Origin: a virus
Length of the DNA stretch: 64,000 nucleotides
IMG/VR virus record: IMGVR_UViG_3300044625_001067
Coordinates: 213,245 to 277,244 of that record
Reading direction: 5' to 3' (one strand)
Shown here: in pieces, positions 46,412-62,305 of the stretch
Numbering within the stretch: the first letter of the stretch is position 1
How the letters are laid out: each line of letters opens with the position of its first letter
Made by a program: the position numbers and the translations under genes
The notes under the pieces: model-generated
Databases searched by the model: none
Told to the model about the DNA's origin: nothing
What the model saw: the letters and a program-made list of their open reading frames with translations, nothing else

Positions 46412-47794
46412 GTGCAAGGTTCCTTCTCATCCGATGCCCTTCAGGCGTACAAAACTCTGATCGCCGAGCAGCACCCTTCGGACTTTTCTGAGGGGGGAAC
46501 GTACGACTTTACACGTTGTGTGAGGAAAGATGGCACTGTGTATGGAACGGCGGGACAGTGTAGGAAGGGTACAGAAGAGGCCAAGGAAAGTGTTTCAAGG
46601 GAGAAAGTAAAGGGTAAAGGGACGAAGAAAACAGTAAAGTCAACGCCACCCGGGAAACCCCTCCCTCCAGAGCTCCATTCGTCAATCTCAAAACTCTCAG
46701 AAAAGCTGTCGGATAAGAAAATGTTGGCTACGCCACAACAAAGAGCGTCTGCGTCAGGGTTAGAACCCGGTGAGGGTAAAAGCGGCGAAGCGAAAGCGAC
46801 GAAGAAAGAGGTTTTGGAAGACATTAAGAGCATTCTTGAAGAGAATCGGGGTCCAAGAGAGGTGAGCAAGAAAGTTAACTCAGCTGGTCTAACCCACGAA
46901 GAAGAAATAGCCGTGATGGTAGACACTGAGCTCGCAAGGGACGGCTATATAAGACAAGGAGACCCGAAGTACGACGGTTGGAGTCGCGCCTTCGATAAAG
47001 AGGCCAAGATACTAGGGTCGGGTATATACGGCACTGCGATTCTAAGTCCGGACGGCGAAGTTGTTAAAAGAGGTCTAATTAGCCGCACAGAGGCTGCTGT
47101 CATGGATAAAGTTGGTAAAGCGGACTTGGGGCCGAGGTTAATAGCTGCGGACATTACCAACAAGCCTTTCTTCCCGACCCGTAAGGTAACGGGGTTAGAC
47201 CTAAGAAACGGTCGTATCGCTATGACTAAAGTTGAGGGGACACCCCTTGGTGAAATCCAAAATAGAGATTCCAGTAGAGCAAATACAGATTCCTATTGGA
47301 AGGCTCGTGCAGATTTACACAGAATGGGTGTTGCCCACAATGATATGCACGAATACAATGTTCTAGTTGATGACAAAGGTAAGGGACGATTCGTTGACAT
47401 GGGATCGGCGCAAGACAACCCGAAAGCAGCCCTCGTGGAGGCACTGGGTGCTTTCCCAGGACCCAAGGGCAAAAGCGCAGACGCTGCCTTTTCAAATTGG
47501 GGTCCAGGCGGAAACCTAATTTCAGACGTAGAAAGAAAGAAAATCACTCCGAAACAAAGAGCAAACTACTTGGCATTTCTCAAAGAGGATGCCCCGCTAG
47601 CCTACAAAGCGTACACAAACAAAGAGAGAGCTATCGAGAAACTCCGAAGTTTTGGGATTGACGGTGAAGACATGACTAAAGTTCTTACCACTAAAACTAG
47701 CACTCGCGACGAGAAGTATAAGGTGGGGCCTTGGGCTAAACTAAGCGACAAGCAAGCGATGGAAGTGATCAACACGCTCTACGAGGGTATCTAA
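46412..47794 (+). CDS. Tagged protein kinase-like effector
   Basis: A 460-residue protein. GTG 46412 is chosen because it gives M-Q-G-S-F-S as in sister genes. Tag: M-Q-G-S-F-S-S-D-A-L-Q-A-Y, D-F-S-E-G at 24-28, then Y-D-F-T-R-C-V-R-K-D-G-T-V-Y-G-T and C-R-K-G-T-E. A low-complexity linker follows. The kinase domain has GSGIYG (202-207), V-V-K with Lys219, catalytic loop H309-N-D311-M-H-x-x-N316, and D329-M-G in place of D-F-G. It is homologous over kinase and C-terminus (L-Y-E-G-I) with the 6406 protein. It may be packaged in the capsid and phosphorylate host targets after injection; this is inference. A small partner gene overlaps the stop. Confidence 0.78.
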   Translation: MQGSFSSDALQAYKTLIAEQHPSDFSEGGTYDFTRCVRKDGTVYGTAGQCRKGTEEAKESVSREKVKGKGTKKTVKSTPPGKPLPPELHSSISKLSEKLSDKKMLATPQQRASASGLEPGEGKSGEAKATKKEVLEDIKSILEENRGPREVSKKVNSAGLTHEEEIAVMVDTELARDGYIRQGDPKYDGWSRAFDKEAKILGSGIYGTAILSPDGEVVKRGLISRTEAAVMDKVGKADLGPRLIAADITNKPFFPTRKVTGLDLRNGRIAMTKVEGTPLGEIQNRDSSRANTDSYWKARADLHRMGVAHNDMHEYNVLVDDKGKGRFVDMGSAQDNPKAALVEALGAFPGPKGKSADAAFSNWGPGGNLISDVERKKITPKQRANYLAFLKEDAPLAYKAYTNKERAIEKLRSFGIDGEDMTKVLTTKTSTRDEKYKVGPWAKLSDKQAMEVINTLYEGI

Positions 47795-47967
47795 TGAAAA
47801 GGACCACAGGAAAAAACGACGCGCAGTACATTGCGCTCATGTCTCGTTACAAGGAAAGACGCGGCGAGCTTGGTGACGGCGCAAATCCGTACCTTGAAGC
47901 TGCGATGAAGCTGCGAGAGAAGGGGGACGTAAGTGAGGATGCGCTCTTAGGTGGGGCTTACCTTTAA
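47794..47967 (+). CDS. Small partner of kinase-like gene (copy 2)
   Basis: A 57-residue ORF with ATG overlapping the kinase stop (TAATG). It is homologous to the 7668-7829 ORF: Q-Y-I-A-L-M-S-R-Y-K-E-R-R-G versus K-Y-L-D-L-M-S-L-Y-K-R-V-R-R, and L-E-A-A-M-K-L-R-E-K-G-D-V-S-E versus L-N-T-A-I-E-L-G-K-R-G-V-S-S-E. Two kinases kept with two partners at 40 kb distance implies a functional pair, such as a kinase and its inhibitor or export chaperone. Confidence 0.65.
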   Translation: MKRTTGKNDAQYIALMSRYKERRGELGDGANPYLEAAMKLREKGDVSEDALLGGAYL

Positions 47968-48027
47968 CCCAAGGGTTGGGCTCCCTGTTCATACGGACAA
48001 GTACTCGTATAACAAAGAGAGTAAGCA

Positions 48028-48037
48028 GGGTAAAACC
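48028..48037 (+). promoter_or_regulatory. GGGTAAAACC element
   Basis: Recurring element ending 22 nt before the ATG at 48060. No Shine-Dalgarno sequence is seen. Confidence 0.5.
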
Positions 48038-48059
48038 TTTTTAGTTCCACTCTTCCTAA

Positions 48060-48377
48060 ATGTCGAAGCTTCCTAACGACCACTCGATGTCGGCCCACAA
48101 GGACGAAGTTGGGCAAGTGATGCACCGGTGGAAGCATCACGACCCGAAACCACTGCACTCTGGCCGGGGAAAGAAAGGGAAAGAAGGTAAGGTTGTTAAG
48201 TCTCAAGACCAGGCTATTGCCATAGCACTTTCAATGGCAGGTAAGTCGAAGGATCATGCAGAGCGGCTAACTTCTATAGGTTATTCCGAAGAGGTTGCTC
48301 AAGAGGTTGCTTCGATGCTTGGCGGTGCCTTGGATTTCGCAACTTGTGGACGTCCCGACGGTTCTTGCCAGGGGTAA
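48060..48377 (+). CDS. Small basic phage protein (DUF6496-like text)
   Basis: A 105-residue protein. The middle contains H-S-G-R-G-K-K-G-K-E-G-K-V-V and K-S-Q-D-Q-A-I-A-I-A-L-S-M-A-G-K-S-K, a pattern seen in many small phage proteins of unknown role. The C-terminus L-D-F-A-T-C-G-R-P-D-G-S-C echoes the Y-D-F-T-R-C-V-R-P-D-G part of the effector tag, but at the other end of the protein. It sits inside the effector island. Confidence 0.65.
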   Translation: MSKLPNDHSMSAHKDEVGQVMHRWKHHDPKPLHSGRGKKGKEGKVVKSQDQAIAIALSMAGKSKDHAERLTSIGYSEEVAQEVASMLGGALDFATCGRPDGSCQG

Positions 48378-48412
48378 GGTTGGACGGCTATTGGCCTTGT
48401 TGAAAGGAAGTG

Positions 48413-48421
48413 GGGTAAAAT
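48413..48421 (+). promoter_or_regulatory. GGGTAAAAT element
   Basis: Recurring element ending 20 nt before the ATG at 48442. The leader between them (ending in a C run) contains no Shine-Dalgarno sequence. Confidence 0.55.
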
Positions 48422-48441
48422 AAGTTTAAAGCAGACCCCCC

Positions 48442-49008
48442 ATGGCAAACGGTTCCTTTTCCTGTGAAGCCCTCTCAGCTTACGAAGCACTTGTTTCTCA
48501 AAGATACCCCCAGAACTTCTCTGAGGGAGAATCGTACGACTACACTCGATGTGTAAAACCTGATGGTAGCGCATATGGGACGGCGGGACAATGCCGCAAG
48601 GGAATAGAGGTGGCCATAACAAAAAGCCATGGGTTCGGCCCAATGACGCCGGAACAACTGGAGCTAGCGAGAGAGGACGCTAAACGAAATATAAGCTGGA
48701 ATAGTGACGCGGACGAGACCTTTAACAAGATTTACGCAAAGGCAGAGTCAGTGAAGCACTTGGGGGCAATTCATAAGGCGGTGATTAAAGCCATAGACAA
48801 CGATGAAACCGATGTGAAAGAGGGCCACGCCTTAGCCATAAAGAAGGCTATGGCAGAAAGGCTTAAACTTGAGGGTAGAAGCGAGGCTGGGACCAAGGAA
48901 GCGAAAGAGCGTGAGGCTATGACCCCGGAAGAGAGAAAGAGAGACTCTTTCCGTAAAAGAGTAGAGTCGGGTATTAAGGGTGGAGTAGTTAGTGGAAGAA
49001 TGCGATGA
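48442..49008 (+). CDS. Tagged effector-family protein, unknown body
   Basis: A 188-residue protein. Tag: N-G-S-F-S-C-E-A-L-S-A-Y-E-A-L-V, N-F-S-E-G, then Y-D-Y-T-R-C-V-K-P-D-G-S-A-Y-G-T-A-G-Q-C-R-K-G. The body is short and helical (PEQLELAREDAKRNISWNSD, K-H-L-G-A-I-H-K-A-V-I-K-A-I-D-N-D-E-T, K-K-A-M-A-E-R-L-K-L) with a basic tail. No catalytic motif is seen. It may be an internal protein whose DNA or protein target is unknown. Confidence 0.72.
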   Translation: MANGSFSCEALSAYEALVSQRYPQNFSEGESYDYTRCVKPDGSAYGTAGQCRKGIEVAITKSHGFGPMTPEQLELAREDAKRNISWNSDADETFNKIYAKAESVKHLGAIHKAVIKAIDNDETDVKEGHALAIKKAMAERLKLEGRSEAGTKEAKEREAMTPEERKRDSFRKRVESGIKGGVVSGRMR

Positions 49009-49088
49009 GTAGAACTCACCGCAAGAGCGGGAGTACCTTGGAGCACGGAACGCTAACCTCCACTCAGATCCAATCGAAAAAGAACTAG
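49005..49088 (+). CDS. Possible 27-residue ORF after the tagged gene
   Basis: A very short ORF whose ATG overlaps the upstream TGA (ATGA), encoding a Ser/Thr/Lys/Gln-rich peptide. Its position copies that of the small partner genes behind the kinase and transferase genes, but there is no homologue in the window to support it. Confidence 0.3.
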   Translation: MSRTHRKSGSTLEHGTLTSTQIQSKKN

Positions 49089-49093
49089 TAAGA

Positions 49094-49630
49094 ATGAACG
49101 TCCCCGGATTTACAACCGAGTCTTTAGCTGCAGTACAAGAAATGCTATACGGGGAGTCTCCGTGGGAACAGCAGTTTTTGACGGGCAAGACCACAGAGAA
49201 GCTTCCGAGAGAGAACAAAACTACGCACGCCCAAAGTTTACAAGGCATGGACATTGATAGTCGTCCGGGGAAACAAAAAGGAAGTGAGGGTAAGCAAAAA
49301 GAGCAAAGTTCAGAGTCAATCTTCCCTGTTTCTCTCCCGAAAGGAAACCCGCAGCAAGGCCCAAGATCGCGTAGCGATCTTAAAGGACTCGCAATGTTTG
49401 ATGAGTTGGGGCAAAAGGGCAAGGAACTCTCGGCAAGCTATGAGGAAAACTGCCGTCCGAGGCCCCAGCCTCGAAGCACAGAGCAACGCCAGGCCACCCA
49501 GCAAGCGCAGCAAGCGGCACAGCAGCAAGGCCAAACTTTCGACCAGCAGCCTCAGCAACAAGTACAAGACTTAGGTAGGCAAGGCGGCCAAGCTGAAAGG
49601 AAGCCAACATTGCCGGTTTGCAACGAATAA
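49094..49630 (+). CDS. Gln-rich protein with effector-like N-terminus
   Basis: A 178-residue, largely disordered protein. Residues 1-20 (V-P-G-F-T-T-E-S-L-A-A-V-Q-E-M-L) follow the same G-x-F-x-x-E-(A/S)-L-x-A pattern as the tagged proteins, but the Cys module is absent. The C-terminal ~60 residues are Gln/Ala/Arg-rich (E-Q-R-Q-A-T-Q-Q-A-Q-Q-A-A-Q-Q-Q-G). It could be another internal head protein. No family is recognised. Confidence 0.6.
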   Translation: MNVPGFTTESLAAVQEMLYGESPWEQQFLTGKTTEKLPRENKTTHAQSLQGMDIDSRPGKQKGSEGKQKEQSSESIFPVSLPKGNPQQGPRSRSDLKGLAMFDELGQKGKELSASYEENCRPRPQPRSTEQRQATQQAQQAAQQQGQTFDQQPQQQVQDLGRQGGQAERKPTLPVCNE

Positions 49631-49647
49631 CTTCACCTATTACAAAC

Positions 49648-51027
49648 ATGGCACACGGTTCTTTTTCTTTTGAAGCTCTCCAAGCGTACGAAGCTCTCGT
49701 CGCCGAGACGCACCCTTTGAACTTCTCCGAGGGGGAAACGTACGACTTTACACGTTGTGTGAGGAAGGACGGTACTATATACGGTAGCCGAGGAAAGTGT
49801 AAGCAGGGTACAGAAATTGGGGCGAAAGAGGAGAGTCAAGTAAAAGGAAAGCGTGGCCCTAAGGCAGGGGGAATGAGGCTCACCGAAAAAATAAAAGGGT
49901 TGGGAGCTGAAGACCTTAAGAAGGTTCTCCAGGACCCTCGCGTAACCCCAAAGCAAAGGGCAGTTTTAGAAGGTTTGCTCAAGAGCAAAGGGGGAGTGAA
50001 AGCTCCTGAGGGCCAGATGTCCAAGAAGGGTAGCGGGCCAGATAGGAAAACCAGCAGGGAAGAGCTGAGGAAAGCAGTCTCAGAAAACAACCCTAAGGTG
50101 CAGGATGAATACGATTGGGTTGGGTCAGGCCCCAAAGCAGTGGCGGAAATAAAAAGAAGTTACAGGATGATGCAAACCCTGGTCAAGTCGCCGGAGTTGG
50201 ACACGGTTGCAAATAAGGCTCGATTGATTAATCTTCGACTGTTGATTTATCAGAAGGAAAGAGAGCTGAAGGAAAGGAAGAAGCCAGGCAGAGACCCGAA
50301 GACGTACGAAGCGGATCTAAAGAATTCCCCTAAGTATGACAAGACTCCGGGAAGTAGCTCCCCGATTCCTAAACGAGTCCCGAAAGATTCCGGTGAAACA
50401 GAATTACCGTGGTCGCCAAGTTTAAAGTCCCTTTACGAGAAGCAGGGATTCAACGCCAAGCCCGAACTTGTTGCAACGGTCGACGATTTACGAAAACGAA
50501 AGGACATTGTAACAAACTCTGACGGATCCCCCCGAATCTTCTATCGTGGTGTTGGGGACGAGAAATTCGCGGATCAATTTAAGGGGTTGGGGAGCGAGGG
50601 GGGTAGTCACTACCCTGGTAAAGGAATATTCGGCAATGGGTCCTACGCCGCAGCACCTTCCTACCACGACCCAAGCGAAGCGTCTACCCGTGAAGCCATT
50701 AAGACAGCAAAAGCGTATGCAGGGGAGAGGAATAATCTTTCTTCAAAAGTTACGGCTTTTGCACTCAGAAAAGACGCAAATATAGTACAATTCAGTGGTA
50801 AAACAGCGCAAGAGGGAATGGAACAGCTCATGGGGTGGAGGGAAATAACCCTGAACGAAGCTCAGAATAAGACCGGGTACCGCTTCAAGGACTTGGGGGA
50901 AGCTGCAGCGGCAGTGGGAATCCACGCCTTCACTTTCCCCTCACTTGGGAAAGACTATTTGGTTCTCCTTAACCGTGGAGCAATCATTGCCGCCATGGAC
51001 TCACAAATCCCCGACGAAAACGAATGA
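49648..51027 (+). CDS. Tagged ADP-ribosyltransferase-like effector (copy 1)
   Basis: A 459-residue protein from ATG 49648. Tag: H-G-S-F-S-F-E-A-L-Q-A-Y-E-A-L-V, N-F-S-E-G, Y-D-F-T-R-C-V-R-K-D-G-T-I-Y-G-S, C-K-Q-G-T-E. Then a spacer domain (M-R-L-T-E-K-I-K-G-L-G-A-E-D-L-K-K-V-L) and a basic helical part. The C-terminal ~180 residues look like an ART fold: F-Y-R300-G-V, H-Y-P-G-K-G-I-F-G-N-G-S332-Y-A-A, A-K-A-Y-A, and a final L-N-R-G-A. T4 Alt is a packaged, injected ADP-ribosyltransferase, so a similar role is proposed. The family assignment is by motif only. A partner ORF overlaps the stop. Confidence 0.7.
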   Translation: MAHGSFSFEALQAYEALVAETHPLNFSEGETYDFTRCVRKDGTIYGSRGKCKQGTEIGAKEESQVKGKRGPKAGGMRLTEKIKGLGAEDLKKVLQDPRVTPKQRAVLEGLLKSKGGVKAPEGQMSKKGSGPDRKTSREELRKAVSENNPKVQDEYDWVGSGPKAVAEIKRSYRMMQTLVKSPELDTVANKARLINLRLLIYQKERELKERKKPGRDPKTYEADLKNSPKYDKTPGSSSPIPKRVPKDSGETELPWSPSLKSLYEKQGFNAKPELVATVDDLRKRKDIVTNSDGSPRIFYRGVGDEKFADQFKGLGSEGGSHYPGKGIFGNGSYAAAPSYHDPSEASTREAIKTAKAYAGERNNLSSKVTAFALRKDANIVQFSGKTAQEGMEQLMGWREITLNEAQNKTGYRFKDLGEAAAAVGIHAFTFPSLGKDYLVLLNRGAIIAAMDSQIPDENE

Positions 51028-51188
51028 ACATCAACGACCCCACAATCAGCCGCATTCTCGCTGTTCTTATTCAACCGGTCCTTTTCGAGGATAGGCGCAA
51101 GTTCATCGAAGATGCCGAGAAAGCAACCAACATGGACTCCTTCATCAGGGGCATTAACAGGTACAAGACGGATACTACTGAGACATAG
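51024..51188 (+). CDS. Small partner of ART-like gene (copy 1)
   Basis: A 54-residue ORF whose ATG overlaps the upstream stop (ATGA). It is clearly homologous to the 56-residue ORF after the second ART-like gene (58502): M-N-I-(N/K)-D-P, (R/S)-I-L-x-x-L-I-Q, D-R-x-x-F-I-E-D-A-(E/K) and M-(D/K)-S-F-(I/M). A conserved pair suggests an immunity protein, an assembly chaperone or an activator of the transferase. Confidence 0.7.
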   Translation: MNINDPTISRILAVLIQPVLFEDRRKFIEDAEKATNMDSFIRGINRYKTDTTET

Positions 51189-51238
51189 GCCGGGGGAACC
51201 TTTCCTTGTGCTCTCAGGGACTCCTCTTACGGGGCCGA

Positions 51239-51248
51239 GGGTAAAACC
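51239..51248 (+). promoter_or_regulatory. GGGTAAAACC element
   Basis: Recurring element with 33 nt to the ATG at 51282; a short direct repeat of TAACCAAG lies in the leader, ending AAGGAACA before the start. Confidence 0.45.
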
Positions 51249-51281
51249 TTAGTAACCAAGTAACTAAGTAACCAAGGAACA

Positions 51282-52010
51282 ATGCCACAATTCACACCAG
51301 AAAAATTCCTAGACTTTGTTCGCTACCGTAGAAGCGATAATCCTAACCAAGAAGCTGCTTTCCTCGACTTTGCTAAGCAAGTTTTTGCAAAGCAACCCGA
51401 GCTACTCACTGACGAAGCAACGTGGGTGCGAAAGTACCGCACACCTTACACTCCGCCCACACAACCTTTGGCCCCCTCACCGAAGCAGTATGTTTCCAAG
51501 GAAACTCTAGCATACGTGTGGCAATGCGCTCCTACCCTAATCACTGACTCCGAAGTGTCCGAGCTAAACAAGTGCCTCGGGGACTTCGGAATAACAACAC
51601 CGCCCCGAATTCGCCATTTTCTCAGTCAAACAGCTCACGAGTCCGGCGGTGGCCGCTGGAAGAAAGAACTTGCTTCGGGGTGGGACTACGAAGGTAGGAG
51701 AGACCTGGGAAATACGCAACCGGGCGATGGCCCCCGCTTCAAAGGTGCGGGCTACATACAATTGACAGGGCGAGCGAACTACCAAGACTTTGCTAATTTT
51801 ACTAAAGACCCTCAGGTGATGCAAGGTGTGAACTACGTTGCGGACAATTACCCTTTCTCTTCGGCAGGGTTCTGGTGGTTTAACAACGGAATGAATGCTC
51901 TTTGTGATAAGAACCCCTCGGTGGAGCAGGTTACCAGGAGAGTTAACGGCGGCTACAACGGTCTTGAAGACCGCAAAATGTACTACAGTCGCACACTCCA
52001 AGTTGTTTGA
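51282..52010 (+). CDS. GH19 chitinase-like endolysin
   Basis: A 242-residue protein. The N-terminal ~70 residues are a helical domain and Pro-rich linker. From about residue 70 it is a GH19/lysozyme-like domain: [11 protein letters not shown]120-S-G-G-G-R-W with the catalytic Glu, Q-P-G-D-G[17 protein letters not shown], and [12 protein letters not shown]. It would cleave the peptidoglycan glycan strand at lysis. No signal peptide is present, so a holin is required. It is an ordinary lysis gene embedded in the effector island. Confidence 0.85.
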
Positions 52011-52187
52011 TTTTGCTTGCGGTAGAAGAACCCGGCTCTTTGCGCTCCCACTCCTTATTTGTGTACGAATTCTGGCAAATGACGGACTATTTGTGACTGT
52101 TCGGAGCCCGAAACCAAAGGTCGCACCCTTGGAAATTTGCTGCTTCACGAAACGGATTCCCACACTAAGTACGTAGTTAACACGGCA

Positions 52188-52430
52188 ATGGAGAACTTTG
52201 ACGAGACGAAAAGAACATACAACACGAAAGTCAGGGAACCGTGGAACCCTGTCATCAAAACATGCCTAGATGCAATAGACCGACACATGTCCTTGCATCT
52301 TAGAACGGGGTGCCCCCAGAACTTGCAACAAGCTGAGCTGCTAAGGGCGTACGTTAGGGGGTTGAAGGAGTGGGTGCGGTCCGAGGAGATTAAGAGTGGT
52401 TGCGGAGGGAGGAATCAAGGTGAGGGGTAA
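52188..52430 (+). CDS. Small hypothetical protein
   Basis: An 80-residue helical protein; the ATG at 52188 is preferred over an upstream in-frame start. Text such as W-N-P-V-I-K-T-C-L-D-A-I-D-R-H and A-E-L-L-R-A-Y-V-R-G-L-K-E-W is seen, with no known family. The 177-nt gap upstream (52011-52187) holds no clear element. Its stop codon lies within the repeated cassette boundary described next. Confidence 0.55.
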   Translation: MENFDETKRTYNTKVREPWNPVIKTCLDAIDRHMSLHLRTGCPQNLQQAELLRAYVRGLKEWVRSEEIKSGCGGRNQGEG

Positions 52431-52469
52431 ACCGCCCCTTTACGCCTGCGAAGCAAACAGGGTAAAATA
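52424..52469 (+). repeat. Cassette-boundary repeat, copy 1 (terminator-like plus GGGTAAAAT)
   Basis: A 46-nt sequence nearly the same as 53379-53423 (one base length difference). It contains G-run TAAACCG C-run with TTTA, a terminator-like hairpin, then a conserved 17-nt stretch and GGGTAAAAT (52460-52468), 20 nt before the ATG at 52489. Confidence 0.75.
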
Positions 52470-52488
52470 GAGCATACATGCAAGTCTT

Positions 52489-53171
52489 ATGCAAGGATCC
52501 TTCTCTGACGAAGCACTCTCTACTTACGTTCAGGTCCTTAAAGATACTCTCGGGGTTTCCTTCTCTGAAGGGAGCTATGACTTCGTTCGCTGTGTGAAAC
52601 CTAACGGCGACGCGTACGGAACAGCAGGGCAATGCAGGAAAGGGGTCCAAGAAGATAAGGGTAGTGAAGAAAGTGGAAGCACTTCAAAGGGGGAAGGGGG
52701 GGGGGGGGGTATTTGTCGGGGAGCAGAGTGGATCTATCTCAGCTTGAAGGAAAAGCTGAGCAATGGAGAAAAGAGGCAGGTTTAAAACCACCGGGAGACC
52801 TTTTGTTAAAACACGATCGTGTTCACGTGCTGCTTCACGAGTATTTAGGTGGGAAAGATACGATAGCAAGTCTGGTCGGGGTCAAGGGAAAAAGCCCAAC
52901 TGTGGCGGAAGAATATTTGGTTACTATGTTGCACAGGGACGCAACGGCTAGGTCTGAGAATGGAGGGAAACCAGAGTCGAAGTCTGACATAAAGAAACAC
53001 TTCGTAATGTTTCACACAATGCTCAAGTCTTTCGGTCAAATCCCTGACGACGAGGCTTCTGTCTATAGAGACTATGACAAGTTCACCGACATATACGAGA
53101 ATATGAGAAAGAGGTCGGACTTCAACAAGTTAATAGAAGCAGTTCAAACTGTTACAACTCCCCCTAAATAA
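52489..53171 (+). CDS. Tagged effector-family protein split by a G14 frameshift
   Basis: The 5' ORF (52489-52785) has the full tag: M-Q-G-S-F-S-D-E-A-L-S-T-Y, F-S-E-G, Y-D-F-V-R-C-V-K-P-N-G-D-A-Y-G-T, C-R-K-G. It runs out of frame after the G14 tract at 52696-52709. The body continues to 53171 in another frame (S-G-S-R-V-D-L-S-Q-L-E-G-K-A-E, H-D-R-V-H-V-L-L-H-E-Y-L-G). With 12 or 15 G the two parts form one ORF of about 226 residues. The tract may slip (on/off switching), or its length may be a sequencing artefact. No catalytic motif is recognised in the body. A small ORF follows. Confidence 0.75.
52696..52709 (+). repeat. G14 homopolymer tract inside a tagged gene
   Basis: Fourteen consecutive G, the longest homopolymer in the window, located at the linker between tag and body and responsible for the frame change. 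Confidence 0.9.
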
Positions 53172-53180
53172 GTTATTACC

Positions 53181-53354
53181 ATGTACAAAGAAACAATTAA
53201 AGAGTTTCTCTCAAACCCTGGCGTAAAAGACGCCCTGAAGGAGGGGGATTTAGAGCTAGTAGCACTCTTGGCGTCGTCAGTTGGGAATCTCAGACGAGAC
53301 CCCGACCTTCGGACGCTAAGTAATTTTCTTATGGGGAAGTTAAAAGAAAGGTGA
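53181..53354 (+). CDS. Small ORF following a tagged gene (possible partner)
   Basis: A 57-residue ORF 9 nt after the frameshifted tagged gene: M-Y-K-E-T-I-K-E-F-L, then G-D-L-E-L-V-A-L-L-A-S-S-V-G-N-L and L-M-G-K-L-K-E-R. It is too short for firm assignment, but its size and position match the partner ORFs behind the kinase-like and ART-like genes. There is no homologue elsewhere in the window. Confidence 0.5.
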   Translation: MYKETIKEFLSNPGVKDALKEGDLELVALLASSVGNLRRDPDLRTLSNFLMGKLKER

Positions 53355-53378
53355 GGCCCACCCCTAAGCAGAGAAGGG

Positions 53379-53423: not shown

Positions 53424-53443
53424 AGGCATACTCGGTAAATCGT

Positions 53444-55048
53444 ATGCAAGGCTCATTCACCCCTGACTCCGCCGAAAAGTTTCTCGCGCTGATGCGTGAG
53501 GCAGGTTACGAAGCGTCCGCCATCTCAAGTGCAGGGGGACTTCAAGATTTCTCTGAAGGGGCTAGGAGTCGCGGAGAGCAGCAATTTGTCGCAAACTCCG
53601 GTGAAGCTCGCGGAGAATACATTGAGAACTACGACTACACTCGCTGCGTCCGCCCCAATGGCACTGCATACGGCACTGGAGGGACCTGCCGCAAGGGCAC
53701 CTCTGAAGAGAAGGGAGAGAACGATGCAATAAGCCAACTTGCGGGAATGCTCCCGAAAGGGTCGAAGATTGTTGGAAGTTCTGGGCGGACTCAAACAGTG
53801 GGTGCAAAGGGCAAGGTCAAAGCGGGGCTAACCGGTGAGCACTGGGCTGTAATTAACGAGAAAATGAAAGAGGTGGGAGAGAAGCTAAGCCGCCAGGAGG
53901 GGTTGCTGAAGCGCATGTCGGACTCACCGAAGTTTGATGACTTAAGGAAAACCACACAGGATAAGATTGAAAAGTTGAGTAGTGCCTATAAAAAGCTCAA
54001 TCAGACGAAGATGCAAATTCGGGACTCCCTGGACAAAGGGAGAATTGAGACCGGTGTGATGGTTCCCCTTGTACCAGAGAACCTGACTCCGAGCGGGGTC
54101 ACGAGGTTTCCGAGCAAGGCCCGAATTTCTCAGGCTGCGGACCCCACTCCGAGCAAAGAGGTGGCACCGGATAAGAAGAAGAGGGGGGCGAAGCCGGGTG
54201 GAATGCGGGTTACTGAGAAGATTAAGGCTTTGGGGGCTGAGGACCTTAAGAAAGTTCTGAGTGACCCGAGACTGAACGACAGGCAAAGGGGGCAGCTGAA
54301 TAAGTTGTTGAAGGAGAAGCAGGGTGAGGGGTTAAAGGGACCTCAAGCGGCAACTTCCAAGGGGGGTACACTACCACACTCAGTTGCAATGGCAAGAAGA
54401 ACTGAAGCTATGTTTAAGAAGGGCGAACAGATAGGCACTAAAGCACAAGACTACCTTAGAGACCGTGGTGCGCTTCAGGCACCTTGGGGGAGCAGGTTAT
54501 CCAATGCAGTAGGGCGTGCAGGGCGTGTTGTGTTCGCTAACAGAATTCGACTGGCCCAATTACGGATGCGACGTGTTAACGATGCATTGGACGATCGGAG
54601 CCCTGGAGGGGCGAAGAAAGACACGATGGTCGGGGACCTTTCTCCCGCCAAGATAGCGGCGATGGAAAACAAAGCTAACCGAATGGCTAGAAAAAACCGT
54701 CAAGCAGATCGAGCAGCACTAGCTAGAAAATTAGCGAAAGAAATGGGCGGGGATGATAGAGACCCTTCCAAGAACAAAACAGCTTTAAGGTTGGTTCAAG
54801 AGAAAGTCGCGAAAGAAGGTCAAAGGAGCCAGGAACCCGCACCGAAGAGGGAGTTAAGGGGGCAGGAGCTTGGAAACGCAATGGTGCTCCATGCTAACAT
54901 TGCCGAGCGTGTACGGGCAAATTACGGGGGCAGTCTGGCGACGAAAAAAGCCAGAGCTGAGCTGCAAGCGGAACTCGACAAAGAAGGAGCACTCAACCGT
55001 GATGAAATTTCAAGGATGCTTAAGGCAGATAGGGCGGAGAGACGCTGA
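53444..55048 (+). CDS. Tagged large basic effector-family protein
   Basis: A 534-residue protein. Its tag is extended: M-Q-G-S-F-T, a longer helix, Q-D-F-S-E-G at 35-40, about 25 extra residues, then Y-D-Y-T-R-C-V-R-P-N-G-T-A-Y-G-T and C-R-K-G-T. After a coiled-coil part comes the spacer domain (M-R-V-T-E-K-I-K-A-L-G-A-E-D-L-K-K-V-L, then R-Q-R-G-Q-L-N-K-L-L-K) shared with the two ART-like genes, but no ART motifs follow. The C-terminal ~200 residues are highly basic (Arg/Lys/Ala). DNA- or RNA-binding or a condensed internal protein is possible. Function unknown. Confidence 0.72.
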   Translation: MQGSFTPDSAEKFLALMREAGYEASAISSAGGLQDFSEGARSRGEQQFVANSGEARGEYIENYDYTRCVRPNGTAYGTGGTCRKGTSEEKGENDAISQLAGMLPKGSKIVGSSGRTQTVGAKGKVKAGLTGEHWAVINEKMKEVGEKLSRQEGLLKRMSDSPKFDDLRKTTQDKIEKLSSAYKKLNQTKMQIRDSLDKGRIETGVMVPLVPENLTPSGVTRFPSKARISQAADPTPSKEVAPDKKKRGAKPGGMRVTEKIKALGAEDLKKVLSDPRLNDRQRGQLNKLLKEKQGEGLKGPQAATSKGGTLPHSVAMARRTEAMFKKGEQIGTKAQDYLRDRGALQAPWGSRLSNAVGRAGRVVFANRIRLAQLRMRRVNDALDDRSPGGAKKDTMVGDLSPAKIAAMENKANRMARKNRQADRAALARKLAKEMGGDDRDPSKNKTALRLVQEKVAKEGQRSQEPAPKRELRGQELGNAMVLHANIAERVRANYGGSLATKKARAELQAELDKEGALNRDEISRMLKADRAERR

Positions 55049-55068
55049 GTAGTACCACCCCAAAAGGG

Positions 55069-55137: not shown

Positions 55138-55157
55138 TAATTCATTGAAGCCCATTC

Positions 55158-56642: not shown

Positions 56643-56649
56643 CTGCCGA

Positions 56650-56658
56650 GGGTGAAAT
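56650..56658 (+). promoter_or_regulatory. GGGTGAAAT, variant GGGTAAA element
   Basis: One-base variant of the recurring element at the standard distance (21 nt) from the ATG at 56680, supporting that start. Confidence 0.4.
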
Positions 56659-56679
56659 TTGGTAGATGTTTTTGTACAG

Positions 56680-57000
56680 ATGGGCGGTTACTTCTCAGAC
56701 ATGGCACTGGATTCGTACCGGAGTCTTGTGATTGAACTGCAAGGTGCGGATTTCGCTGAGGGGGAAACCTATGACTTTACACGCTGCGTAAAACCGTCCG
56801 GTGAAGCGTACGGAACGGCGGGGCAGTGTAGGAAGGGTACGGAGGAGGCTAAGGTGGAAGCCCCACCTAATGGAGGAATAAGAGAGGTCAAACAGGGTGC
56901 CCCAAAGGTCCGGGGAATGCGCGTGGGGAAGACGGTTAAGAGCCTTTCCGTCGGGGACCAGGAAAAGCTTCTAGGTGATCCGAGAGTAAAGCCTCACTAG
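56680..57000 (+). CDS. Tag and spacer segment upstream of the second ART-like gene
   Basis: A 106-residue ORF with the tag (G-G-Y-F-S-D-M-A-L-D-S-Y, F-A-E-G, Y-D-F-T-R-C-V-K-P-S-G-E-A-Y-G-T, C-R-K-G-T-E) and the spacer domain (M-R-V-G-K-T-V-K-S-L-S, D-P-R-V-K-P-H). It ends at TAG 56998-57000. The same frame goes on with A-A-K-I-Q-K-L-I-D-D-K, a second stop (TAA 57034-57036), then the ART-like ORF. By alignment with the 49648 protein the TAG replaces a Gln. The gene is therefore broken, read through, or expressed as two parts. Confidence 0.7.
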   Translation: MGGYFSDMALDSYRSLVIELQGADFAEGETYDFTRCVKPSGEAYGTAGQCRKGTEEAKVEAPPNGGIREVKQGAPKVRGMRVGKTVKSLSVGDQEKLLGDPRVKPH

Positions 57001-57081
57001 GCCGCCAAGATTCAAAAGCTAATAGACGATAAGTAAGGCTCAGAGACTACCCCCAAGCCCAAAGCCGAAACCAAGCCCAAG

Positions 57082-58500
57082 GTGGCGGAGAAGCCAAAGG
57101 CTGAGGCTAAGAAGGCAAGCGACCCGGTGAAAGACGCAGATCGGGAGCAGTACAATGTCCTTTTAGAAAAGTCAAGGAAGGCAGCCGACATTTCGTCAAG
57201 GATTAAGAGTGACATTGAAAAGGAGACCGGGAAGGCAGTTTCCCCTACAAGTCCCAACTGGAAGGAGTACACAACTCGGCTCAAGGCAGAGAAGTTGACT
57301 CCGAAGAAAGTATCTGACCTTAGTGTCGCTGTCCGAAACTTCAGAAAAGCGGAGGGAAGGGGTTGGCTAGACAAGGAACTTCAGGCTGCGGATGTTGCAA
57401 AGAATAACGCTGCTTGGAAGTCTATACCCCGAGACGAAAGGAAGGCAGCTATTCAAGCTCGGGTCGAGAGAAGTGCGAAAAGGGAGAAGTCCCTGTTTGA
57501 GTTGTCAATCGAGATCAAAGATTGGGGAAGGTTTATTAAGTCTACACCTGAACTTAACACACCCGAAAACAGAACGGCAATGGTAGCCATGAGGGCTCTT
57601 CGGGCCAAACTTTTCATGGGTGAAAAGTCCGAAAGAGAGGCGAAAGCAAAAGCCTACCAAAAGTTCGTTGAGGGGTCTCCGAAATACAAAGAAGTACCAG
57701 GGAGTACAAAGCCGATTCGGAAAATGAGCACCGAGGAAATTGTGAAAGAACTCCGAAAGGCGGAAAATGACTATTTGACCAGGGCTCAGGACTTTGATAA
57801 AAGGGGGAAGACCTTTGAAGCAAACTTAGAGAGAGGGAAGGCAAACGACGCAGACTACTTCGCAGGCAAATACTTGCGTGGACTTTCCAGAAACCCTCCT
57901 TTAGACTTCATATATAGGCTGCAAGGTTACGATGCACGCCCCGAAGTTGTGTCCAGCCGGAAAGACCTGGAGAGTCGAGACGACTTAGTGAAAGGGAGAG
58001 ATGGTAAAGCTCTCGTTCTCTGGAGAGGCGTCACTTCGGTGGAATTTGCAGATCAGTTTAAGGGTGCAGGTCCGAGGGGCGATGTTCACTACCCTGGAAG
58101 CGGAATATACGGGAACGGAACCTACGCAGCATCTGAGTCCCCCGGAACTCCTAATAGGCGATCCGCCTTAAAAGAAGCCGAGTCCTATACTGGATGGGGA
58201 GATGAGAACAAGGATAGAAGAATTACGGCTTTTGGTATACGAAAAGACGCCAACATCGTTCAGTTTGAAGGCAAGGACTGGATGGAAAGGGGGGGGGGCA
58301 AGTTTAATGATTGGAAGAAAGGGATAATAAAGAAAGCGGAAGATGAGACGGGCAGGGTATTTCACGACATCGGGGAGGCTGCCGCTGCCTTGGGTGTACA
58401 CGCTTACAGAGTGCCACAAGGTCGGGACGAAGACTTCTGGGTCATCCTTAACCGAGGTGCTCTCGTAGTCGCTGCCGATCCACAAATGGAAGATTACTAA
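57082..58500 (+). CDS. ADP-ribosyltransferase-like effector body (copy 2)
   Basis: A 472-residue ORF starting at GTG, in the same frame as the upstream tag ORF. The N-terminal part is Lys/Ala/Pro-rich, then helical. The C-terminal ~190 residues match the ART-like domain of the 49648 protein: L-V-L-W-R315-G-V, H-Y-P-G-S-G-I-Y-G-N-G-T347-Y-A-A, R-K-D-A-N-I-V-Q-F-x-G-K, H-D-I-G-E-A-A-A-A-L-G-V-H-A and L-N-R-G-A. It is probably a mono-ADP-ribosyltransferase fold; which residue is the catalytic Glu is not clear to me. The long intact frame despite the upstream stops suggests it is still expressed. Confidence 0.68.
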   Translation: MAEKPKAEAKKASDPVKDADREQYNVLLEKSRKAADISSRIKSDIEKETGKAVSPTSPNWKEYTTRLKAEKLTPKKVSDLSVAVRNFRKAEGRGWLDKELQAADVAKNNAAWKSIPRDERKAAIQARVERSAKREKSLFELSIEIKDWGRFIKSTPELNTPENRTAMVAMRALRAKLFMGEKSEREAKAKAYQKFVEGSPKYKEVPGSTKPIRKMSTEEIVKELRKAENDYLTRAQDFDKRGKTFEANLERGKANDADYFAGKYLRGLSRNPPLDFIYRLQGYDARPEVVSSRKDLESRDDLVKGRDGKALVLWRGVTSVEFADQFKGAGPRGDVHYPGSGIYGNGTYAASESPGTPNRRSALKEAESYTGWGDENKDRRITAFGIRKDANIVQFEGKDWMERGGGKFNDWKKGIIKKAEDETGRVFHDIGEAAAALGVHAYRVPQGRDEDFWVILNRGALVVAADPQMEDY

Positions 58501-58501
58501 A

Positions 58502-58672
58502 ATGAACATCAAAGACCCAATGAATTGCCGAGTCCTTTCTATCCTAATCCAGGATGTTTCCGGGGATGACAGAGACCAGTTTATTGAAGACGCGAAAAGT
58601 GCCACAGACATGAAAAGCTTTATGAACGGGATGCCAAAGTACAGGAGGATTTCTTCTCAAGTCTCCCCTTAA
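58502..58672 (+). CDS. Small partner of ART-like gene (copy 2)
   Basis: A 56-residue ORF one base after the ART-like stop. It shares M-N-I-K-D-P, V-L-S-I-L-I-Q, D-R-D-Q-F-I-E-D-A-K and M-K-S-F-M with the ORF at 51024-51188. The pair is conserved in order, spacing and sequence, which supports it being a real gene and a dedicated partner. Confidence 0.7.
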   Translation: MNIKDPMNCRVLSILIQDVSGDDRDQFIEDAKSATDMKSFMNGMPKYRRISSQVSP

Positions 58673-58715
58673 CTCTGCAGTAAAGTTTTTCGCCAGCAAA
58701 GTTTTGAAACCAACG

Positions 58716-58742
58716 TTTACCGTTCTTTACGTGTCCTATAAT
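58716..58742 (+). promoter_or_regulatory. psbA promoter
   Basis: A perfect TATAAT (58737-58742) with TTTACC (58716-58721) 15 nt upstream. It is a host-type sigma70 promoter, as usual for cyanophage psbA. Confidence 0.65.
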
Positions 58743-58772
58743 ACCTGTGTCGCGGTTGATTCTTTCATCCGC

Positions 58773-58842
58773 CTTGCCGCACCGGGACTAGGCAAGTCAA
58801 TCCGTCTCTCATCCTGCCTCACCTTAGGGTAGTGAGGGTTTT
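58773..58842 (+). promoter_or_regulatory. psbA leader with two hairpins, the second terminator-like
   Basis: In the ~130-nt leader, CTTGCC (58773-58778) pairs with GGCAAG (58791-58796), and CCTCAC (58817-58822) with GTGAGG (58832-58837) followed by GTTTT. The second could attenuate transcription or end a short leader RNA; it may alternatively stabilise the psbA message. Confidence 0.45.
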
Positions 58843-58884
58843 GTAACAGATCTTTCCCTAAGATCACTTACTTAATCATGCTAA

Positions 58885-59964
58885 ATGGCTAGTTCAGTTT
58901 TACAACGTCCTCAGAGTAATCTTTGGGAGCGTTTCAATGGTTGGGTCACATCGACTAACAACCGTATTTTCATCGGCAACTTTGGAGTCTTAATGATTCC
59001 GTGTCTCTCTGTCGCTGCAATCGTTTTTGTTCTTGCCATCATCGCGGCCCCGCCAGTCGATCTGGATGGTATTAGGGAGCCCCTCTCAGGGTCGCTAATG
59101 TACGGGAATAATATAATTTCCGCTGCAGTGGTTCCAAGTTCTAATGCGATTGGATTGCACTTTTACCCGCTATATGAAGCCCAGTCTCTTGAAGAATGGT
59201 TATACAATGGGGGCGAATACCAGATGATTGTGTTTCACTTTCTGATCGGTATAGCTTGCTATGCTGGCCGTCAGTGGGAACTTTCATACTACCTGGGTAT
59301 GCGCCCCTGGATTTTTGTGGCTTACCTGGCCCCTGTGTCAGCCGCTTTCGCAGTGTTTCTGATCTACCCCGTGGGACAGGGTAGTTTCTCTGATGCAATG
59401 CCTTTGGGCATAAGTGGAACTTTTAACTACCAAATTGTGTTCCAAGCGGAACATAATATACTAATGAACCCCCTGCATATGCTAGGAGTCGCTGGCGTGT
59501 TTGGTGGTGCTTTGTTTAGCGCAATGCATGGGAGTTTAGTAACCAGCTCTCTCGTTCGGGAGACCACTGAAAACGAGTCCCATAACAATGGGTACAAGTT
59601 TGGTCAAGACCAGGAGACGTACAATATTGTTGCAGCTCACTCCTACTTCGGACGACTCATCTTCCAGTACGCATCCTTCAACAACAGCCGCAGCCTGCAC
59701 TTTCTTCTGGCGGCGTTCCCTGTGGTTGGAATTTGGTGTGCCTCGATGGGTATTGCGATCTCCGCAACCAACTTAAACGGCCTGAACTTTAACCAATCTG
59801 TCCTCGATCACACAGGAAAAGTTATTCCCACTTGGGCAGACATCCTTAACAGGGCGGACCTCGGGTTGGAAGTGATTCACGAAAAAAACAGTCACCAGTT
59901 CCCCCTAGATCTGGCCTCTGCCTCTTCAACACCTGTCGCTCTAACCGCCCCTTTAGTCGGTTGA
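58885..59964 (+). CDS. psbA: Photosystem II reaction centre protein D1
   Basis: A 359-residue D1 protein, normal length with five membrane helices. All key residues are in register: Gln130, Tyr161 (Tyr-Z), Asp170, Glu189, His190, His198 (P680 ligand), His215, Ser264 (QB), His272, His332, Glu333, His337, Asp342 and Ala344, followed by a short cleavable tail (V-A-L-T-A-P). It replaces damaged host D1 during infection. Several positions normally constant in D1 differ: Asn32 (usually Trp), Tyr136 (usually Arg), Asn195 (usually His) and Ser253 (usually Gly), so this copy looks unusually divergent. There is no intron. Gln130 is typical of the low-light D1 form. Confidence 0.95.
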
Positions 59965-59982
59965 GTTGCGGTTAATTCTCGA

Positions 59983-60015
59983 CCTCTAAGGTATAGCACC
60001 CTTAGGGGACTTTTT
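59983..60015 (+). terminator. Rho-independent terminator after psbA
   Basis: CCTCTAAGG (59983-59991) pairs with CCTTAGGGG (60000-60008, one G-U) around a TATAGCAC-type loop, then ACTTTTT. It separates psbA from the endonuclease gene, whose ATG is 3 nt after the T run. Confidence 0.8.
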
Positions 60016-60017
60016 GT

Positions 60018-60632
60018 ATGACATACCCCGTTGGTAAACCTGCTCACAATCGCTTAACCGAAGAGCGAATGAGGGAGGAGTGTGCCAGCAGGAACCACAC
60101 CTTGTTAGAACTAAAGCACCCGCTCATAAAAGTTCGCTGTTACTGCGGCAACGAGTACGAGCAGAAAATACACTCGTACAGGGCAGCTAAGAACTCATGT
60201 AAAAAATGCGATAGTCAACGTAAGTCTAAACCTCGCCCTGAGCACTCTCGATTGATGAGAGAGAACAACCCGTTCAAGGGGAAAACGCACAAACCCGGAA
60301 TATTTGCCGATCGTATAAACTCGTGGAAACCAACCCCCGAGCAAAGAAAATGGCCAGGAGAGTTGTACTTAGTCAGGTACCTCGACGAATCCGGAACGCA
60401 CTTCAAACTTGGCATAACTTACCGAGGAGTTCAAGAGAGACTCGGCAATAAACTCATATACATAATCCACATCCACCACGCCACCCTCGGAGAATGCTTC
60501 GACCTTGAACAGTCCCTACTCAAGTGGGCTCGCTCCCATGGCTATCGCTATTCCTCTCCAACCACAACCGAACTACTCCACCCTGCTAGCATAGACCACA
60601 TTCTCAGCAAATTGCGAAGCAATTTCGGGTAA
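60018..60632 (+). CDS. Free-standing homing endonuclease-like protein next to psbA
   Basis: A 204-residue protein. It has a Cys4 zinc-ribbon-like part (V-R-C-Y-C-G, then S-C-K-K-C), a NUMOD3-type N-N-P-F-K-G-K-T-H, and a GIY-YIG-like nuclease core (G-E-L-Y-L-V-R-Y, F-K-L-G-I-T-Y-R-G-V-Q-E-R-L). Homing endonucleases beside psbA are known in marine cyanophages, such as F-CphI of S-PM2, but that enzyme has a different fold. Here psbA is uninterrupted. It may drive psbA-region exchange between coinfecting phages. Confidence 0.68.
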   Translation: MTYPVGKPAHNRLTEERMREECASRNHTLLELKHPLIKVRCYCGNEYEQKIHSYRAAKNSCKKCDSQRKSKPRPEHSRLMRENNPFKGKTHKPGIFADRINSWKPTPEQRKWPGELYLVRYLDESGTHFKLGITYRGVQERLGNKLIYIIHIHHATLGECFDLEQSLLKWARSHGYRYSSPTTTELLHPASIDHILSKLRSNFG

Positions 60633-60634
60633 GT
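60627..60634 (+). promoter_or_regulatory. GGGTAAGT, variant GGGTAAA element
   Basis: A one-base-shorter variant overlapping the stop of the endonuclease gene and ending 21 nt before the ATG at 60656. A GAGG lies 14 nt before that start. Confidence 0.35.
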
Positions 60635-60655
60635 TACTTAGAGGACGGCATTTAT

Positions 60656-62305
60656 ATGCAAGGCAACTTCTCAAACACAGCTCTTGAACACTACCAAGAA
60701 GTGGCGAAAGAAAAACTTGTAGATTCCCTTTACGGGTCAAGCTATGATTTCACTCGCTGTGTTCGCCCCAACGGCACGGCCTACGGCACAGCGGGAACTT
60801 GCCGAAAGGGTTTAGAAGCTGCTCTCGAAGCCGAGCCCGCACGCGAAGTTACCAAGAAGCCGAGATCCAAAGCACCAAGTAAAGCACTCTTGAAGAGTTT
60901 GCCTGCGGAGCTAAGGGCCAGGGCCGAGAAGTTGGTTGCTGCGTACGAAGAACTGGCCGAGCTAAAGGGACAGAATTTGCCTTCGGGTGAGAACTGGCGC
61001 ATAGACGAAGCAAATAAGAAAGTTGGAAACGCACTCAAGGATGCCTTTGAGATGGCCGACACCATGAGACTAAGGCCCAAAATGGAAGCCATTGAGTGGT
61101 TGGGATTTGCCAGCTCACGCTCACAAACTGAGCTGAGGGAGACAATCAATAGGAACTCCTACGACATGAGAACACTTAGGGAGTATAGCCCTGAGAAGAA
61201 AGAAGAGCTGAAGGCACTCGAAAGAAAGACACTTACGCTTATTGAAAACATAAAAGACCCGGTAACCAAGGCTCAACTTCTCTTCGAGACGAGTAAAGCA
61301 TCCGGAAAGCTAAAGGTCAGCAAAGCAGGGAGCCTAACGGACACAATCAGGAAAGGAAACACTTTCCTTAAGGAGTACGACGAAGGGTTACGATCAACTG
61401 TAAGCATCCTTCGCAAAGCAAACGCCCTTGAAGAGCAACTACGTGTGCTGAGTAAGAAACTTGAGGTCGACCGAGAGCCAGGCTGGATAAAGAAAAAGCT
61501 GAGGGTGTCCGGAGCCATCATGAAGGTCGCACGACACAGGGGAAACGCAGAAGCACGTTTACAGGCCAAAATGCAGGGTATCCGTGAGCAGCTCCTGAAG
61601 ACTTCCTTGTCTGAGGATAAGATTCAACTGCTTGTCAGCAGAGTGGCCTTAGTGCCTCCCAAGGGCTCGATCACGCTCGACCAGGAAACTGTGGCGCAAA
61701 CACGTAAGAACCTTGAGGAATTTACGCGTATGTTCAACGGCAGGGGGATGCTTGAGGTTCTCGAAAAGAAAGAGGAGAGGAAGCAGCTTTCACAACTTGT
61801 GATAGATCCCGCTCAGCGTGCTTTTGCCATGGTTAATACCGGCTTCGTAACATCGAACGGTGGAAAACAAACTCTGTTTCACGAGATCGGTCACATTGTA
61901 GAGGGACAAAGAGACTGGCTCCTTAACTACTCTAATCGGTGGAGAGACTCTCGGGCCTTCTCCGTACAAAAAGCGTACGACCACCCAGAGACTCAAAAAC
62001 TGGTCGGTGACGGAAAGACTACGAAAGTTCCCTACACTCTAGAGACGCTAAGTACCACGAGGAAGACAGTGCCCGTTGTAAAACTCAACGAGATGCTTCC
62101 ACTGAAGGGTATGGACTACAAACCAGAGGAAATCGCTGTTTTAGACACTTTCCTCTCCCCCTACTTAGGAAAGCGATACAAGGACAATTTTACGGAAATT
62201 GTGTCATCCACGCTAGAGCACTTTGCCGAGCCTCATTTAATGGCTCACTTATACAAGAAGCATCCTGACCTGTTCACCTTAGGAGTCGGTCTCGCTACGG
62301 ACTAA
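60656..62305 (+). CDS. Tagged zincin metalloprotease-like effector
   Basis: A 549-residue protein. Tag: M-Q-G-N-F-S-N-T-A-L-E-H-Y, then Y-D-F-T-R-C-V-R-P-N-G-T-A-Y-G-T-A-G-T-C-R-K-G; the F-S-E-G site is missing. A long helical region follows (about 60-370). The C-terminal domain has a zinc peptidase motif T-L-F-H409-E410-I-G-H413-I-V-E-G, and a further F-T-E-I-V-S-S-T-L-E-H-F that may supply the third ligand. It may cut a host protein after injection or act in the virion. Substrate is unknown. No partner ORF follows; the next gene is convergent. Confidence 0.75.
   Translation: MQGNFSNTALEHYQEVAKEKLVDSLYGSSYDFTRCVRPNGTAYGTAGTCRKGLEAALEAEPAREVTKKPRSKAPSKALLKSLPAELRARAEKLVAAYEELAELKGQNLPSGENWRIDEANKKVGNALKDAFEMADTMRLRPKMEAIEWLGFASSRSQTELRETINRNSYDMRTLREYSPEKKEELKALERKTLTLIENIKDPVTKAQLLFETSKASGKLKVSKAGSLTDTIRKGNTFLKEYDEGLRSTVSILRKANALEEQLRVLSKKLEVDREPGWIKKKLRVSGAIMKVARHRGNAEARLQAKMQGIREQLLKTSLSEDKIQLLVSRVALVPPKGSITLDQETVAQTRKNLEEFTRMFNGRGMLEVLEKKEERKQLSQLVIDPAQRAFAMVNTGFVTSNGGKQTLFHEIGHIVEGQRDWLLNYSNRWRDSRAFSVQKAYDHPETQKLVGDGKTTKVPYTLETLSTTRKTVPVVKLNEMLPLKGMDYKPEEIAVLDTFLSPYLGKRYKDNFTEIVSSTLEHFAEPHLMAHLYKKHPDLFTLGVGLATD

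Follow-up and report, generated by a model that had tools for sequence, protein, structure and literature searches.

The last 64 kb of the 277,244-base virus record IMGVR_UViG_3300044625_001067 (hereafter the window) contain eight genes, and a diverged ninth, whose products begin with a common N-terminal module placed in front of unrelated effector-like bodies. We call this module tag 1. We propose that it is a prohead-targeting module, often trimmed by the prohead protease, which would load effectors into the phage head for injection; on the strength of sequence comparisons, we consider this reading fairly probable. The tag family is not previously described, and no model in Pfam, PHROGs or NCBIfam covers the tag region.

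Judging from its genes, the virus is a large cyanophage of the kind of Synechococcus phage S-CBWM1: its head genes, at 186-196 kb of the record, are related to those of S-CBWM1 (capsid protein 64-76% identical in two main pieces, protease 46-47%), and the D1 photosystem protein is encoded in the window (open reading frame (ORF) 58885). The whole record was examined through searches and chosen stretches. Labelled loci of related viruses are cited by L-numbers (L008, L022 and so on), of which L114 holds S-CBWM1 gp39.

Tag 1 and its bodies

The tags of the window are as follows (aa, amino acids; ART, ADP-ribosyltransferase).

4338-4466, + strand: diverged tag variant, gene 4338; GDFS...WDFAACEPDEKMVYGICRK; relatives read CPPGTKMVFGMCRR or CEPGERVVFGRCAKG
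5414-5665, + strand: long-form tag 1, gene 5414; 84 aa; in-frame TAG downstream
46412-46570, + strand: tag 1 of gene 46412; 53 aa; GSFSSDAL...DFSEG...YDFTRCVRKDGTVYGTAGQCRKG
48442-48603, + strand: tag 1 of gene 48442; 54 aa; NFSEGESYDYTRC
49648-49809, + strand: tag 1 of gene 49648; 54 aa; NFSEGETYDFTRC
52489-52644, + strand: tag 1 of gene 52489; 52 aa; SFSEGSYDFVRC; L008 has an Alt-like ART body instead
53444-53695, + strand: long-form tag 1, gene 53444; FSEG, spacer, YDYTRCVRPNG...CRKG
56680-56838, + strand: tag 1 of gene 56680; 53 aa; DFAEGETYDFTRC
60656-60811, + strand: tag 1 of gene 60656; 52 aa; no FSE site

A first-pass annotation of this DNA had listed these eight genes and diverged gene 4338, and each was found at the start it gave. 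Tag 1 consists of a short helix with GSFSxEALxxY (module 1), often an F-S/A-E-G string, and then module 2, YDFTRCVRPDGxxYGTxGxCRKG. Ten columns are invariant when the eight window tags are aligned (Y, R-C-V, G, Y-G, G, C, G). The order of motifs is as the first-pass annotation described it, but the motifs are less exact: G-S-F-S is exact in four of the eight (46412, 48442, 49648, 52489), F-S/A-E-G occurs in six (46412, 48442, 49648, 52489, 53444, 56680; 5414 has FSED and 60656 lacks the string), and CRKG is exact in six, with CKKG in 5414 and CKQG in 49648. Module 2 is also seen behind different upstream sequence, and in some proteins it lies mid-chain. An AlphaFold model of the tag places a helix at residues 8-21, then an uncertain linker that holds FSEG, then a small beta-hairpin with a third strand.

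A profile search of the whole record identified 14 tag sites on both strands (E values 7e-34 to 5e-14), six of them absent from the earlier list, and the tagged genes are spread over the whole genome. At least 86 stretches in IMG/VR match, and related viral contigs hold about 88 non-redundant tag-1 proteins. Among 50,697 phage records, tag 1 occurs only in S-CBWM1, in two copies: gp165, whose gene lies close to that of the tail sheath, and the NMNAT-like enzyme gp39. No relative of the tag was found in the genomes of 84,980 bacterial and archaeal species (one genome each), and a cellular origin was rejected on this result. Since tag 1 was found in S-CBWM1 alone among these phage records and in none of these cellular genomes, it is confined to one phage lineage, as far as the searched collections reach. 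No curated family has matches in any large proportion of the tagged proteins, and where a window protein has a convincing match, it falls in the body. NCBIfam gave only kinase signals on the window genes, and a sequence search of solved structures with the tag and an ART-like body gave nothing convincing.

The peptide, and not merely its DNA, is kept. The 105 distinct module-2 DNAs encode 67 distinct proteins, and over 5,460 pairs the mean proportion of synonymous differences (pS) was 0.82 and the nonsynonymous to synonymous ratio (pN/pS) was 0.22; some fixed positions of module 2 belonged to the search pattern, and pN/pS is the independent measure. Among the window tags, pairwise DNA identity is only 53-79% (pS 0.47-0.98), with the protein conserved. 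Synonymous changes thus approach saturation and the amino acids stay conserved, which indicates that selection acts on the tag as a peptide. The near-saturation also led us to reject a recent gene duplication or a DNA-level repeat as the source of the tags.

The bodies, by contrast with the tag, are exchanged between close relatives. Window positions 51282-52659, which hold a lysin gene and the tag of gene 52489, are 94% identical in DNA to L008. After 52659 the two are dissimilar to 53377 (about 720 bases), beyond which they again agree at 90.6%. Codon 57 of gene 52489, just behind the CRKG of the tag, marks the break, and the L008 body behind it is an Alt-like ART (phrog_802, E 6e-9). Likewise, the long-form tag of 5414 precedes several mutually dissimilar bodies in relatives, with a lowest pairwise tag identity of 79% and a median of 91%. 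The approximately 88 tag-1 proteins form about 60 body clusters, most of them without a known domain. Recognisable bodies are kinases, ARTs of more than one kind, cytidylyltransferase/NMNAT-like enzymes, a zincin and DUF6496, and several tagged proteins are small and basic without a recognisable domain. Nearly all tagged proteins have one body; two-tag chains (L022:6143-7708, L035:7035-8606) are exceptional. The claim that a portable N-terminal module sits on unrelated effector-like bodies is therefore strongly supported by the alignment, the profile, the body clusters, the swap and pN/pS, and so many clusters exclude the idea that the tag belongs to a single enzyme family.

The bodies behind tag 1 in the window, and a related neighbour, are as follows.

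46412-47794, + strand: tagged kinase-fold protein with RIO/Bud32-like signals
48060-48377, + strand: DUF6496 protein, C-terminal end LDFATCGRPDGSCQG; in relatives, a full module 2 follows the DUF6496-type part
48442-49008, + strand: gene 48442, tag 1 and a basic body
49648-51027, + strand: tagged protein with an ART-like body; similarity to the PSS2 MuF minor head protein (C-terminal domain) at residues 250-449
52695-53171, + strand: 14-G run at the tag-body junction (52695-52708) and out-of-frame body ORF 52713
53444-55048, + strand: gene 53444, long-form tag 1 and a body without assigned function
57082-58500, + strand: ART-like body ORF 57082, same frame as the 56680 tag
60656-62305, + strand: tagged zincin-like protein; HEIGH

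The kinase fold and the HExxH zincin that had been recognised from the letters alone were borne out: the body of 46412 matches RIO1 at 22.7 bits against a cut-off of 22, as well as PHROG kinases, and is Bud32-like, and 60656 contains the motif HEIGH. The two ART-like folds fared less well. The bodies of 49648 and 57082 have no Pfam ART match, their best Foldseek hit in PDB is a RES toxin at E 0.36, and in a viral library they match strongly only PSS2 proteins, with ART-named proteins at E 0.05-0.4. Their ART nature is thus no more than suggestive, but clear ARTs are found among the tagged bodies outside the window.

Tag 1 also occurs on NMNAT-like nucleotidyltransferases in S-CBWM1 gp39 (L114:1694-2353), L021, L022, L040 and L064. 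Delivered cargo may include enzymes of NAD metabolism.

A second tag and the prohead protease

A second tag, KCxKGKSCGxxCIxxxxxC, which the first-pass annotation had not noted, lies at or near the protein start in two ORFs of the window, in two S-CBWM1 kinases and in S-CBWM1 gp174, which is annotated as a 'virion structural protein'. The tag-2 proteins of S-CBWM1 include gp113, gp161 and gp162 as well as gp174.

1179-1859, + strand: tag-2 protein; KCTAGKSCSATCISKGFKC
6397-7668, + strand: tag-2 kinase of the same family as 46412; RCTKGKSCGGTCISREAKC

Body families cross between the tags. Within this one genome, the kinase bodies of 46412, which has tag 1, and 6397, which has tag 2, share 32% identity over 295 aa, and their family has eight tag-1 and 15 tag-2 members. 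The homologue of 1179 at L044:380-1054 (39% identity, E 2e-57) has a tag-1-like N-terminus (GDFSEAAL) instead of tag 2. The minor head protein of cyanophage PSS2 (ACT65592; 1,499 aa) combines Phage_Mu_F and Zeta-toxin domains; its ART-like C-terminal domain is found behind tag 1 and its Zeta domain behind tag 2. Because the kinase family, the 1179 family and the PSS2 effector domains all span the tag types, we read tags 1 and 2 as two labels of like function. A comparison of contig names showed that 11 tag-2 viral contigs carry tag 1 too, and no protein carrying both tags together was found. The MuF domain itself (PF04233) had no match at E 0.001 in 85 tag-1 and 43 tag-2 proteins. A third variant, GSFSEELL...CEPGERVVFGRCAKG, takes in the diverged gene 4338. 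A tblastn search for tag 2 in the phage records gave no match, even in its carrier S-CBWM1, and is uninformative as a negative.

The F-S/A-E-G string of tag 1 points to the prohead protease. The prohead protease-scaffold protein of the phage matches Mu-like_Pro (PF10123; 28.3 bits against a cut-off of 25.2) and contains seven F[SAGTD]E strings where 1.4 are expected. Three of its sites have an F-x-E counterpart in S-CBWM1: PFSFSE, where the protease domain ends, NQQFSEM, and LDFAEGET. The string DFAEGET stands letter for letter in the 56680 tag as well (ADFAEGETYDFTRC). Across 34,212 aa of ORFs from this genome, F[SA]EG occurs only in tags, in the protease-scaffold and in one other ORF, a count whose non-overlap rule left out tagged genes 48442 and 52489, both with FSEG; in 40,913 aa of S-CBWM1 it occurs only in the protease, gp170, which has the string LEFSEGET. 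Within 30 aa upstream of module 2, F[SA]E is present in 25 of 48 dissimilar upstream sequences (2000 shuffles: mean 2.4, maximum 8). Seven copies of module 2 in this set lie deeper than 90 residues in their frame, and each of them is preceded by [FY]xE at a distance of no more than 30 aa. The chain at L022:6143-7708, for instance, reads tag, NMNAT, FSE, module 2, coiled coil. Glu is the residue after which the T4, phiKZ and SPN3US prohead proteases cleave (PMC5694885). Because the string is enriched before module 2, is present in the protease-scaffold and ends in the residue after which known proteases cut, F[SA]E|G is a credible candidate for a site of maturation cleavage, with the cut-after-Glu rule taken from T4, phiKZ and SPN3US and the protease here Mu-like.

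Tagged genes also often share an upstream leader with virion genes. GGGTAAA, counted as the exact string at a fixed distance (no more than 120 nt ahead of the start and usually some 30 nt), precedes 53 of 88 tag-1 genes and 11 of 42 tag-2 genes. It also precedes 115 of 546 other ORFs, and tail, portal, capsid and lysis genes make up many of these. On the + strand of the loci (window, L122, S-CBWM1), the motif has about nine times the density seen on the reverse, and the leader DNA is repeated inside the genome; with two mismatches allowed, it was not above chance in L122. GGGTAAA looks like a phage-specific, perhaps late, promoter, and the pattern suits late expression of the tagged genes.

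Four small conserved genes adjoin tail genes (561-1166, 2283-3077, 3485-3865 and 4902-5336 of the window), all with the GGGTAAA leader. Two of them have a tag-like N-terminal helix (GDFDTDSIEAF, GSFSPEAYRAY) and no Cys hairpin. They are likely to be further virion proteins. Near the C-terminus of the 1179-1859 family, an F-S/A-E or Y-A-E string is kept before a hydrophobic helix, and this is perhaps a maturation site.

Function of the tags and comparison with known systems

We propose a model in which the N-terminal amphipathic helix and the small Cys-containing beta-hairpin direct the tagged protein into the assembling head. In many tagged proteins, the Mu-like prohead protease would probably remove the helix at F-[SA]-E|G, leaving the hairpin as the new N-terminus. 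The packaged kinases, ARTs, zincin, NMNAT-like enzymes and basic proteins would then be injected with the DNA and act on the host. The delivery logic suggested by the first-pass annotation thus gains independent circumstantial support from F[SA]EG in the protease-scaffold, the MuF effector domains and the leader of virion genes; packaging, and with it cleavage, injection and host targets, is what we infer from these.

Several observations weigh against this model. Confidence in the AlphaFold model of the tag is modest (predicted local distance difference test (pLDDT) 73, predicted template modelling score (pTM) 0.38). About one-third of the sequences upstream of module 2 lack an F-x-E site, including those of 60656 and S-CBWM1 gp39. 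Only two of 20 regions upstream of tag 2 have such a site; for this reason we rejected a cleavage site before tag 2, and cleavage is not common to all tagged proteins in the scheme. The two tag-1 genes of S-CBWM1 both lack a structural annotation, and no virion proteome of S-CBWM1 was found in the papers searched. Finally, GGGTAAA precedes 21% of the other ORFs, some of them metabolic.

It is possible that the tag is instead an address within the cell, or a docking peptide, that serves late in infection and brings unpackaged enzymes to, for example, thylakoids, the assembly site or a phage compartment. The enzyme bodies would also be sensible inside the producing cell, the leader in common with virion genes shows only possible lateness, and the papers searched yielded no proteome that shows packaging. 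We nevertheless consider this unlikely, as it leaves unexplained both a string held in common almost only with the prohead protease-scaffold and effector domains in common with a MuF head protein. In another reading, the tagged proteins are inner-core or scaffold-associated structural parts of the virion that stay in the head, their enzyme folds inactive. Small, basic tagged proteins without recognisable domains and the DUF6496-type partners fit such a role. However, the kinase members are numerous and matched by catalytic-domain models, the zincin HEIGH motif and clear ART domains are kept, and the turnover of bodies between close relatives is effector-like and unlike core structure, which makes a purely structural role quite unlikely.

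Two further explanations concern the tag itself. An autoinhibitory or folding pro-region, released by the protease, could silence toxic bodies in the producing cell; F-x-E-type sites before many tags and the toxin-like nature of the bodies would agree with this. Yet the same tag is found on about 60 unrelated body clusters and on small basic proteins, unlike a specific inhibitor, and the conserved hairpin would fall on the body side of the cut. We regard a pro-region as very improbable. The tag could also be a recombination landing pad, conserved DNA for body exchange with no peptide function, since bodies are exchanged exactly at the end of the tag and leader DNA repeats within the genome. 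This explanation is already disfavoured, and we give it hardly any weight, because the tag DNAs have diverged to near-saturation at synonymous sites while the protein is held.

A broader possibility can be raised tentatively: a general effector-loading system of this phage lineage, in which two or three interchangeable small Cys-rich tags are read by the assembling prohead while bodies are swapped rapidly. Secretion systems follow a logic of one signal with variable effectors, and the phage tags would be their counterpart. If prohead targeting is correct, the tag would be a sequence handle for the injected host-takeover proteins of cyanophages, which are otherwise unrecognisable because most body clusters have no known domain, and the first phage proteins to enter the cell could be found by profile search. 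Outside T4, it would add a targeting signal that is compact and modular by nature, carried by an isolate, S-CBWM1.

The closest working likeness is the capsid targeting sequence (CTS) of T4, which is found on IPI-III and Alt and processed by gp21; ten residues of it suffice for packaging (PMC9026906). Both are short N-terminal helix-like modules on unrelated proteins with a protease site, probable here, that ends in Glu, and an Alt-type ART is among the cargo here. However, tag 1 is longer (about 52-90 aa), has a conserved Cys hairpin behind the site, is attached to many more cargo types and is accompanied by a Mu-like protease (PF10123). No sequence relationship to the T4-type module was found, with T4 relatives among the 50,697 phage records searched. 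The T4 comparison drawn by the first-pass annotation may hold as a likeness of working, but the tag is not a recognisable CTS homologue. By analogy, the system may work like T4 CTS delivery; we do not file it as a member, because homology was not found and virion location is inferred.

Head-protein propeptides of SPN3US and phiKZ are cut after A-X-E or S/A/G-X-E, and gp53 and gp54 have identical N-termini on diverged proteins (PMC5694885). In contrast, the predicted site here is F-[SA]-E, and the shared module sits on unrelated enzymes. MuF polymorphic toxins such as the PSS2 minor head protein have the same ART-like and Zeta effector domains, but the tagged proteins carry a small tag in place of the MuF domain, and every effector has a gene of its own. 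Polyvalent proteins of phages and conjugative elements have the same repertoire; their ARTs, kinases and zincin metallopeptidases are thought to enter with the DNA (PMC5512222). They are large multidomain chains, whereas here nearly always one body follows a common N-terminal tag. A relative of the 60656 zincin adjoins a DarA_N internal head protein in the P1-like internal head operon of Xanthomonas phage Rb1, with no tag there.

Interrupted genes and neighbouring head genes

The reading frames of three of the eight tagged genes are interrupted (5414, 52489 and 56680). An in-frame TAG interrupts the frame at 5414-6400, and the relative at L072:7824-8810 is uninterrupted. Between the 56680 tag and ORF 57082 lie an in-frame TAG and a TAA, such that the two share a frame and are not joined in this sequence. 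The stop-broken frames at 5414-6400 and 56680-58500 look like decaying or suppressed genes. The frame of gene 52489 is shifted at its run of 14 G; the run has 10 G in a near-identical contig (L005 near 12254), and tag and body share no frame at either length. The run may be phase-variable, or an artefact of sequencing.

The major capsid gene is in pieces, with endonuclease-like ORFs between or near them (L122 approximately 9532-11987; G000 193.0-195.5 kb). This broken-up gene is as expected for group I introns; the annotated introns of S-CBWM1 sit in psbA instead. At L113:6029-9245 (G000 208.5-211.7 kb), two adjoining terminase-like ORFs and a third fragment appear as if the large terminase gene had been duplicated or split.

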